A program made the translations under genes and the position numbers. DNA of 64,000 nucleotides from Centroberyx gerrardi (Eukaryota; Chordata; Actinopteri; Beryciformes; Berycidae): contig NC_136004.1 of assembly GCF_048128805.1 (NCBI RefSeq), forward strand, positions 18,164,185 through 18,228,184, written 5' to 3'. The notes under the pieces are model-generated. The model worked only from the letters and a program-made list of their open reading frames with translations, was not told the DNA's origin and searched no databases. Positions 31,071 to 34,706 of this stretch are shown here, one piece after another (positions within the stretch are counted from its first letter, which is position 1; each line of letters starts with the position of its first letter).

Positions 31071-31125
<55 letters not shown>

Positions 31126-31213: not shown

Positions 31214-33617
31214 TTAGGGTCCAGATGAAAGAAAGTGCATCTCTGTATCTCCTTTGGGTGCCTGGCATTCCCTCTCTCCCTCCTCCTCTGCGTCTCTGTT
31301 CCCCACCCGGCCTCTGGCCCGGGCGCGCCACACAAACATGGCAGGGAAGGCGTGTTTGAAGGCCTTTCTGAAGTTGTTGCCCATGAAGGCATAAACCAGC
31401 GGGTTGACAGAGGAGTTGGAGTAAGACATGCAGTGACCCCAGATCTTCAGCTGTGGACGCAAAATCCAGACAGATTTAGACGAAAAGCATTGATCCATGT
31501 CGCCAATCTAGGTCACCACAGCCGTGTTATTCAGTATCACTGGAAAAGCAAAACTAACGTTTGATCCACACCTCATCTGGAGGGAGCATGATAAATGTGA
31601 GCATTTGAGAATTTACCCAGGCTACTTCATTTTAAGTAATCTCTTTTTTTTTTTTTTTTACTTCAATAGGCTATAGGAGTATTTCCTCTTTATTCATTTA
31701 GCGGTAATGGGTCATCTCAGCAAAAGAAAATGTGAAACAAAATTGAATATTGCCATTTCCCTCAAAAACACAAACATGTCATGCATGGAATTTGTGCTTT
31801 TATCGTAATTATCTATTTAAATGAGAACAGTTTTTGGGTTACAACTAATATAAATATATATGGGGAACACTGGGGTAAAGACAGTGATGGCATCACCTAC
31901 CAAGGCAAACTGAGATTCATTCAATCATGAAAATATGAAAATGGAATAAGATCACAACAAGACATCCAGTCACCTTATAGAGAACGTAACTGCGGAGGCC
32001 GAAGGCTTGCAGGAGGATGCAGACCTGGATGGGGCCCCAGCAGACGAGGAACAGGGCCACCATCACCACCACCATGCGGGAGACCCGCGCCCGCACTGCT
32101 GCTGCCCGCTCTGACTGAGCCTGCAGCTGGAGGGGGAAGAAATGTGGTGAGGCTGAGGGGAGATGTGACACTGACAGAGAAGAAGACTTGGTAATGATCA
32201 AGAGCTGTTCACTGTGGAGTTACTTTTGAGTCTTTATTTTGAAAGTGGAAAAAAAGGTTTGTAAGAAAAAAAAAGGTTTAGAAGCGGGGAAAAAAAAGTT
32301 TGAAAAGTGAATAAAAGTTTCCAGTTTTGGATTCTTTTCCTTTCACTTACAATTAGTATCTCTTCTTCATTCATTCACATCTCTTTTTTCATTCACTCAA
32401 ATCTTTTTGGTGTGGGTAAAGTGTAGAAGAGAGCAGCGTAGTGAGGGAGATTATGACAGGTGAGTAACCGGTCAATCACATCTGTTTCCACTGATCAACA
32501 TGGTTGAATGTATAGCTGAGCCATGACAGCAATGTTATTATGCAGTATGCAATATTGACTGGGCCAATACACTCTTGATTATCTTAATATGACGATAGCT
32601 TGTAAAATGAGATTTGTGAAAAGAGATTTGATTGAATGAAAAGGATATTTGAATGAAAATGAATAGAAAAAAAAATATTTTAATTAATAAAATAAATAAA
32701 TGAATAAATAAAAAAGAACAATGTAAGTGAAGGAAGGAAGGAATCCAAAACTGATTTTTTTTTTCCACTTTTTTTGCTTTCAAAACATTTTTTTCTACTT
32801 CCAAACCTTTTTTTCGCTTTCAGATTTTTTCTCACTTTCAAAATAAACATACAAAAGTAACTTGACAGTTCTGTGTTTCTCTCACTTGGTAGGTGCTGTC
32901 AGTGGGCTGCACGCTGGGCTGGCCCATACGCTTGAGCATGAAGGCGTAGCAGGCGGTGATGGTGAGCAGGGGCAGGAGGTAGACGGCCAGGAAGCTGTAG
33001 ATGATGAAGACTTTCTGGAGATGAGCAGATGGGAAGACCTCGCTGCAGTACGTCTGCGGGCCAAACCAGTAGCCGGCCTCCAGGCGCTGGTACAGAGCCA
33101 CAGGAATGGACAGAAGCAAGGAGCCTAGAGACGACAGGGGGTGTTTTTACCAATGGAATCAATTGCTGCCATAGGAGTGCGCTTTGGTCATGTTTCAAAG
33201 TGAAAGTTGCAGGTTACTGACTGCGTGTGGAGCGGCTTAAAGACCACATGAAGTGAAAACTGACTTTTTTGAGTTGTGAAGGGATGTTCCTAACAATAAG
33301 TGTTCTCCAAGGAGATGATACAGGCAAAACAAAATCTAAAAATAACAAGTTTGCACCTCAAACAGTGTTTTTCATCATTCTTCCTGTAAACATTGAGTAG
33401 AAAGTAACTCAACTGGCTAATTTCCAAAGTAACATGTAGACAATATTCTGTTGGGTCATCATCTTTACCACAGATTAGCAGATTGGCATTCTCTTGAGCT
33501 GCTGTATAACTATATTTCTTTTCATCACATGCTGGTGATGGTCATTGAAAGCTGTCGCATTAGTTATTGTAATATCTCATTACCATTGTCTCATTGCCAC
33601 TGTGTGTGTAAGGCTGT

Positions 33618-33658
<41 letters not shown>

Positions 33659-34549
33659 GTACCTATCCAGATAGATATGGAGATGGCCAGGGCCATGCGA
33701 GGGGTACGGTGGCGGAGTGACTGCAGGGGGTAGACCGTCACATAGCACCGGTCCACACTCATGGCTGACAGAGTGATACAAGTTGCCTGGGCAGTCACCT
33801 GGAACACACACACACACACACACACACTCAGATGACTGTCTGACAAAGATGGGCTAATGTGTTTCTTATGCAAACTACGATACTACTGTCACTAGAAGCA
33901 TTTCCAGGCCTATGCAAAGAGTTGATGTGTGTGTGTGTGTGTGTGTGCGGACATGCAAGCCGTATCATCTCACTTGCTGAAGGTAGTTCACCAGTCGGCA
34001 CATAAAGTCTCCAAAGACCCAGCTGGGCAGAGGGTAGAGCGTGGCTGTGAAGGGCACACAGCACACCAGAAACAGGATATCGGTAGTAGCCAGGTTTACT
34101 GCGAGAGAACAGATGCCTAGAGTAGTTCCTAAACAGAGAAACACACTGCAATTCCACATGCACCACAGCAGTACTATTATTACAGTATTTATATTTACTT
34201 TTCACTAGACGTTTCTGTTGAATCTCTGCTTTATTTAGCTAGCTTACTCATCTCTATTGTGAAAATGTGACTTTATTGTTTGTGCTGAACTTTACGTGTC
34301 TATGTTGCCACAGAAATGAGAAATGTTACCTATGTAAAAGTTGGTGACGGTCTTCATCTGCTGGTGCTTGGTGACCACATGGATGACCAGCGAGTTCCCC
34401 ACCAGGCCGACCAGCATGATGAGGCCGAAGAAGGTGGGCACCAGCCAGGCATCGACCAGCACCGGAGGCCCCTGGCCCTCCAGAGCCGCTGACTGGTTGC
34501 AGACAGACCCACAGTCTGGAAGGTGATTGGCTGTCGAGTCCGCTGTCAT
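31214..34549 (-). CDS. kiss1r: Kisspeptin receptor (GPR54-type GPCR, 6 exons, complete)
   Basis: A class A G-protein-coupled receptor. Kisspeptin receptors signal through Gq and control GnRH neurons and reproduction. Coding exons: 34,330-34,549; 33,974-34,098; 33,663-33,798; 32,886-33,124; 31,974-32,120; 31,214-31,450. All are GT-AG and in phase, giving 1,104 bp and 367 residues. Visible features: an N-glycosylation site NQS (Asn18), TM1 from Trp35 ([20 protein letters not shown]), Cys107 and Cys187 for the extracellular disulphide, DRC at 131-133 in place of DRY (human has DRW), CWGP at 267-270 in TM6, and NPLVY at 305-309 in TM7. The start ATG gives an N-terminus of normal size. The C-tail is short and Arg-rich, then acidic. 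It is closest to the GPR54-1 type. Which teleost paralogue (Kissr1, 2 or 3) it is cannot be settled by eye. Confidence 0.95.
32218..32862. mobile_element. Long-inverted-repeat (foldback) element in receptor intron 4
   Basis: The left end (AGTTACTTTTG, then TTTATTTTGAAAGTGG) and the right end (CCACTTT-like stretches, then CACTTTCAAAATAAACAT and CAAAAGTAACT) are inverted copies. The similarity continues inward through GGTTTG...AAAAAA blocks, AGTTTTGGATTC, TTCACTTACA and ATTCA-rich repeats, so the arms span roughly 130-200 nt each. The element fills about 84% of intron 4 (32,121-32,885). I found no clear target duplication and no coding frame. Confidence 0.75.
33617..33656. repeat. (TG)20 tract in receptor intron 3
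   Basis: On the transcript strand this is (CA)n, starting 6 nt after the exon 3 donor (GTACCG, then CACACA). It is very close to the 5' splice site. Confidence 0.95.
33799..33973 (-). other. Intron 2 with paired (CA)n/(UG)n ends
   Basis: In the 175-nt intron the transcript carries (CA)11 at 33,947-33,926, about 26-48 nt after the 5' splice site, and (UG)12 at 33,828-33,804, ending 4 nt before the acceptor CAG. The two tracts are complementary over about 22 nt and would fold the intron into a hairpin that brings both splice sites close together. Beyond the UG tract there is little classical polypyrimidine sequence. The fold is directly predictable from the sequence; its function is inferred. 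Confidence 0.85.

Positions 34550-34675: not shown

Positions 34676-34706
<31 letters not shown>

Follow-up and report, generated by a model that had tools for sequence, protein, structure and literature searches.

Complementary CA and UG repeat tracts at intron 2 of a Kissr-3-type kisspeptin receptor gene of Centroberyx gerrardi, and a predicted contest for a shared UG arm across exon 3

The locus described here lies in a window of 64,000 nucleotides from Centroberyx gerrardi (genome size 779 Mb; contig NC_136004.1, hereafter C8), and all positions given below are those of this window. A kisspeptin-receptor gene of six exons was delineated on the minus strand at 31214–34549, with an intact open frame of 369 aa. 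Its exons are found at 34330..34549 (coding part of exon 1, 220 nt), 33974..34098 (exon 2, 125 nt), 33663..33798 (exon 3, 136 nt), 32886..33124 (exon 4, 239 nt), 31974..32126 (exon 5, 153 nt) and 31214..31450 (coding part of exon 6 including the stop codon, 237 nt). A PDB search using the 369-aa product returned human KISS1R as the best match (E 1.2e-121) and galanin receptor 2 as the next family (1.1e-55), in agreement with the initial annotation, which had named the gene a kisspeptin receptor from the sequence alone. The alignment with human KISS1R runs ungapped over the junction of exons 2 and 3 (QQ/V). A perfect TCTA tetranucleotide array of 7.8 copies (34676–34706) lies a short way upstream of coding exon 1 and is a possible genotyping marker.

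The lengths of exons 2–4 are identical to the 125, 136 and 239 nt listed for the eel Kissr genes in the accessible part of that report (PMC3502363), and the last two of the six exons have the lengths of their counterparts in pejerrey kissr3, which is also described as a six-exon gene ending in exons of 153 and 237 nt (PMC6200147, available in part). A family scan of the 83 open reading frames of the window gave two matches to Aminotran_5 and one each to the TUTase and related nucleotidyltransferase families. The Kissr-3 locus is reported to be flanked by PSAT1 and ZCCHC6 (TUT7) (PMC3502363, section 26, as available), and these frames are, as expected, probably the same two neighbours, although the matches are at the level of the family and the gene identities are presumed from the synteny. 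On the strength of the KISS1R match, the exon lengths shared with eel and pejerrey and the neighbouring families, we therefore call the gene Kissr-3 type, an assignment made from these features rather than from a tree. Another of the 83 frames matched the VPS8 beta-propeller family (E 1.1e-5), a family-level match that applies to the window as a whole rather than to a position in it. Comparison of ten single frames with Pfam yielded one sub-threshold match and nothing else.

Intron 2 spans 33799..33973 on the minus strand (175 nt, GUGAGA...UUCCAG, phase 0), exactly where the initial annotation had placed it, and bears CA and UG tracts at its opposite ends. On the transcript, (CA)11 occupies intron nt 27–48 (33926..33947) and (GU)12 occupies nt 147–170 (33804..33827), the latter being followed by UCCAG and serving as the arm common to both of the helices considered below. 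Both tract sizes stand as first described; the distance to the acceptor had to be corrected, in that (GU)12 ends 3 nt before the AG and the 4 nt originally given applies only when counting from the last full UG. This is the sole UG tract of at least 6 units between 1.2 kb upstream of the ATG and 0.4 kb past the stop codon, and the scan of the gene region returned six CA-type tracts against one UG tract of at least 6 units. A candidate branch-point A, judged by what we take to be the branch-point consensus, is located at 33828 (minus strand) in AUCUGAG, 30 nt from the end of the intron and directly before the GU tract. Retention of intron 2 would introduce a stop after two intron codons and yield a 117-aa product.

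No other acceptor of the gene's five is as poor in pyrimidines as that of intron 2, where the longest pyrimidine run between −20 and −4 is 3 nt; the runs at the other four are of 4–13 nt, with intron 5 nearly as weak (run of 4). The GU tract occupies the usual place of the polypyrimidine tract, and the weakness of the latter fits an acceptor with a relaxed requirement for U2AF2. The donor of intron 2 is ordinary, with seven of nine matches to the consensus. When the intron RNA was folded alone, nt 25–47 paired with nt 147–169 in a continuous 23-bp helix, close to the 22 or so continuous base pairs anticipated, and the minimum free energy was −61.8 kcal/mol against a mean of −50.1 for 200 dinucleotide shuffles (z −2.87), two of which folded as well. 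The published precedent invoked in the initial annotation does exist: paired AC and GT repeats were found to bridge fish introns and to relieve the need for U2AF2 (Lin et al., 2016, Genome Res. 26:12-23, as described in papers that cite it). With AC repeats near its donor and GT repeats near its acceptor, intron 2 is, by its sequence, a member of this AC/GT-bridged class. The bridging idea itself is already known, and the intron is one candidate of the published class.

To place the arrangement against its background, we used a sample of 264 kb that comprised the window and twenty 10-kb stretches, four of them adjoining the window; 5,000 bases of the sample were N. It contained 83 CA/TG tracts of at least 8 units, or 0.31 per kb, and 18 of these are in the window. 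We scanned 175-nt frames on both strands for CA in the first 60 nt together with TG ending in the last 10; 18 of 520,650 frames matched, all of them representing this one locus read on two strands, and the mirror arrangement was found in none of the 520,650 frames of the sample. Multiplying the frequencies of the two single ends gives 6.6e-6. Such a geometry is unlikely for one given intron, and alone it shows no selection, since the genome has very many introns and the tracts cluster. Without regard to geometry, six pairs of opposite-type tracts with gaps of 30–400 nt were present in the sample, two of them in this gene. On the plus strand three of the six run CA-then-TG and three TG-then-CA, and inverted pairs as such are therefore unbiased as far as a small sample can tell.

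The adjoining intron 3 (33125..33662, minus strand, 538 nt) opens with GUACCG(CA)18. Its (CA)18 tract (33621..33656 on the minus strand, intron nt 7–42), which the initial annotation had overlooked, starts 6 nt after the donor and is longer than the CA tract of intron 2, making it a rival partner for the UG tract. No UG tract of at least 5 units is present in intron 3. A single UG arm consequently has a nearby CA partner both upstream and downstream, the downstream one being separated from it by exon 3. The intron-3 donor, UAG/GUACCG (33657–33665), is the weakest of the five, with five of nine matches to CAG/GURAGU (the others have 6–7). Skipping of exon 3 would shift the frame and give a product of 215 aa, and retention of intron 3 one of 187 aa. 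A further possible partner is (CA)24 at 31076–31123 (minus strand), which comes soon after the stop codon and is probably part of the 3' untranslated region.

Folding in transcript context revealed a change of partner. In transcripts ending anywhere from the end of intron 2 to the end of exon 3, 93% of the UG bases paired with the CA tract of their own intron. Once the CA tract of intron 3 was included, own-intron pairing fell to 0.1% or less and 99.9% of the pairing was across exon 3, and the same was obtained with longer transcripts up to exon 1–exon 4. When all 24 nt of the GU tract were counted, own-intron pairing amounted to 87–89% before the appearance of the intron-3 tract and cross-exon pairing to 98–99.6% after it. 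The switch was assessed with the Turner 2004, Turner 1999, Andronescu 2007 and Langdon 2018 parameters at 15, 25 and 37 C, and it was the same in all four sets and at all three temperatures. In the minimum free energy structure of the 3,490-nt pre-mRNA, all 24 of the 24 UG bases paired with the intron-3 tract and none with the intron-2 tract or with (CA)24. As a control, the intron-3 tract was shuffled, and the own-intron helix was then retained (88%) in 20 of 20 shuffles. Judging the fold of intron 2 in isolation was therefore rejected, as the partner of its UG tract changes when intron 3 is taken into account. These results speak against the description of the intron as a "clean natural example" of a bridged intron, in that folding predicts an almost complete exchange of partner, the UG tract giving up the CA tract of its own intron for (CA)18 across exon 3. 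The original observation was true and well placed, and its interpretation is partly supported, being correct but incomplete.

The switch depended on tract length. At least 10 CA units were needed in intron 3 (the change occurring near 9–10), and at least 16 CA units in intron 2 undid it (change near 14–16); with 24 UG units the two helices shared the arm, 31% own-intron and 68% cross-exon. Blocking the intron-3 CA tract cost 8.4 kcal/mol in ensemble free energy and blocking that of intron 2 cost 3.1. Taken as a whole, the 972-nt stretch was no more stable than its shuffles (z −0.20, with 8 of 20 as good), and the accessibility of the splice sites differed modestly between the helix states, the intron-3 donor for example being 0.54 versus 0.32 unpaired. 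It should be kept in mind that nearest-neighbour folding leaves out proteins, kinetics and helicases.

A second kisspeptin receptor, the Kissr-2 paralogue, is encoded on contig C13 of the same genome. Its intron 2 is about 9.5 kb long and ends in an acceptor with a full pyrimidine tract (run of 7), and its intron 3 measures 409 nt. No CA/TG run of at least 4 units occurs in the ends of intron 2 that were read (412 + 383 nt) or in intron 3. As far as these stretches go (for intron 2, the ends only), the homologous introns are tract-free, and the tracts are therefore not needed for splicing of homologous kisspeptin-receptor introns. We also considered the tracts as a conserved property of kisspeptin-receptor genes and rejected this as unproven, given the tract-free stretches of Kissr-2 and an intron 2 of 1,116 bp in pejerrey kissr3, according to the accessible part of that report (PMC6200147), against 175 here.

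The reading that we prefer, at a probability of about 0.38, is structural, namely that intron 2 is a bridged intron whose UG arm is contested by two CA tracts. The CA–GU helix would bring the two splice sites of intron 2 together; it would presumably form first, because its arms are the first to be transcribed, and could then assist the joining of exons 2 and 3 where a normal polypyrimidine tract is missing. The longer CA tract of intron 3 would emerge a few seconds afterwards and, as the computed pairing suggests, may take over the UG arm. The resulting cross-exon helix would loop out exon 3 and cover the region beside its weak donor. Whether exon 3 is included or lost would depend on how long each of the three microsatellites is and on CA- or UG-binding proteins, and which helix lasts would depend on strand-exchange kinetics and proteins, both outside the folding model. 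Arguing for this structural reading are the tracts at both ends of intron 2 together with its fold in isolation, a polypyrimidine tract weaker than at the other four acceptors, the partner switch across parameter sets, temperatures and the pre-mRNA structure with its shuffled-tract control, the length dependence of that switch, and the intron retention and exon loss noted for several teleost Kissr genes in the available portions of three reports (PMC8982144; PMC3502363; PMC6200147). Against it stand the unexceptional overall stability of the longer pre-mRNA, the modest changes in splice-site accessibility, the paralogue introns that lack tracts in the stretches read, and the isoforms in the accessible literature, which affect exons and introns other than exon 3 and intron 2. 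A stronger form, a three-tract switch with two mutually exclusive helices, we consider improbable: pairing of the UG arm with its own CA tract would join exons 2 and 3, and pairing with (CA)18 of intron 3 would loop out exon 3 and favour its skipping or circularisation and a truncated receptor. Under such a switch, the relative lengths of the two fast-mutating CA microsatellites would tune receptor output between individuals.

The structural reading has to be weighed against the view that these are neutral microsatellites, three of which happened to land in or beside one short intron of a CA/TG-dense genome, with splice sites that are adequate and little effect on splicing. This is possible, if somewhat doubtful. 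The tract density of the sample and the 18 tracts of the window agree with it, as do the several further CA tracts around the gene, the ordinary intron-2 donor and the paralogue that does without tracts; it accounts less well for an exact geometry restricted to this locus among 520,650 frame positions, and for the occurrence of that geometry at the very acceptor whose polypyrimidine tract is the gene's weakest. Rather unlikely, in our estimate, is a role of the tracts as protein-bound single strands, in which TDP-43 or, presumably, a CELF-type protein on the UG tract would weaken exon 3, hnRNP L would bind CA beside the donors, and pairing would be secondary. Hui and colleagues reportedly showed in 2003 that hnRNP L binds variable CA repeats in eNOS, and it can be envisaged that hnRNP L on CA assists weak donors like the one of intron 3, the weakest of the five and only 6 nt before (CA)18. 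For the UG side of this proposal the locus has the sequence feature of a TDP-43-type element, some 11 or more UG units immediately preceding an acceptor, and the model is CFTR, where TDP-43 causes skipping of exon 9 from (TG)11-13 beside a poor polypyrimidine tract (PMC12171016, accessible in part). The (TG)m(T)n element of CFTR intron 8 resembles intron 2 in having about 12 UG repeats near the acceptor and a poor polypyrimidine tract, and by analogy the expected effect would be a shifted inclusion of the downstream exon; it differs in the T run that follows TG, where UCC is found here, and in that complementary CA tracts flank the UG element on both sides here (PMC12171016, in the same part). 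Against this proposal, perfect complements of at least 22 nt close by are expected to pair and so to hide the single-stranded sites that these proteins would bind.

Very improbable is a pUG fold, in which (GU)12 would form a left-handed quadruplex by the acceptor and the CA tracts would act as antisense strands that hold it open. The complementary strands nearby argue against it, and so does time, splicing usually being faster than 13–17 minutes. According to the accessible text of one study (PMC12276007), the in vitro folding half-life of (GU)12 is 13–17 minutes; the same source states that the fold requires 12 guanosines, a number that (GU)12 supplies as the minimal case, and that pUGs are enriched near human splice sites. 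We treat the intra-intron helix, the cross-exon helix and UG- or CA-binding proteins as candidates for control of splicing at this locus. The contest over a shared arm, as modelled, is the part that goes beyond the initial reading, and we consider it worth testing.

AC and GT repeats were reportedly described as fish splicing enhancers by Yeo and colleagues in 2004, and the AC/GT-bridged class is said, from the work of Lin and colleagues in 2016, to occur in about 10% of zebrafish genes; on that figure, intron 2 would be ordinary for its class. Like the introns of Lin and colleagues, it is a short teleost intron with a poor polypyrimidine tract and with dinucleotide repeats at its two ends that are complementary to each other; a helix bridging the splice sites is predicted for the intron folded alone and for transcripts up to the end of exon 3. 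It is unlike them in that a longer CA tract at the donor of the next intron competes for the UG arm and is the predicted winner. Complementary sequences in the two introns flanking an exon can pair with each other, and the exon between them is then looped out or circularised. The UG tract upstream and the CA tract downstream of exon 3 are likewise complementary and predicted to pair; unlike in that case, the upstream arm here has a second possible partner within the intron that carries it. General mention of such exon loops and circles is made in the available part of one report (PMC9198270). If the contest is real, the dose of a reproductive receptor would be tied to two fast-mutating microsatellites, and the AC/GT class, so far one of single introns, would come to include an exon with competing partners on its two sides. 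It also follows that folding intron by intron can mislead where the next intron has a second complementary repeat.

Alternative splicing of teleost kissr genes concerns the same gene family, and the isoforms described in the accessible parts of the literature are unproductive ones that arise through intron retention and exon loss (PMC6200147; PMC8982144; PMC3502363) and involve introns and exons other than those considered here. Kissr-3-type isoforms of eel and zebrafish lose exon 2, and not specifically exon 3, in the portion available (PMC3502363), and the introns listed as retained in pejerrey are the third of kissr2 and the fourth of kissr3, rather than intron 2 (PMC6200147, available in part). 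The available portions of these splicing reports make no mention of CA/UG tracts (PMC6200147; PMC8982144; PMC3502363). A literature query combining kissr3 with microsatellites gave no kissr3 paper among the matches listed, which is no proof of absence. The weak intron-3 donor with its adjacent (CA)18 is worth recording in its own right, intron-3 retention having been reported for kissr2 of sole and pejerrey in the parts of those papers that could be accessed. In the Kissr-2 paralogue, intron 4 carries two pyrimidine-only repeat runs of 61 and 99 nt (L041, 1285–1345 and 1532–1630, 0-based start, reverse strand), the second of which lies near the exon-5 acceptor and represents an acceptor style opposite to that of Kissr-3 intron 2 with its UG tract.
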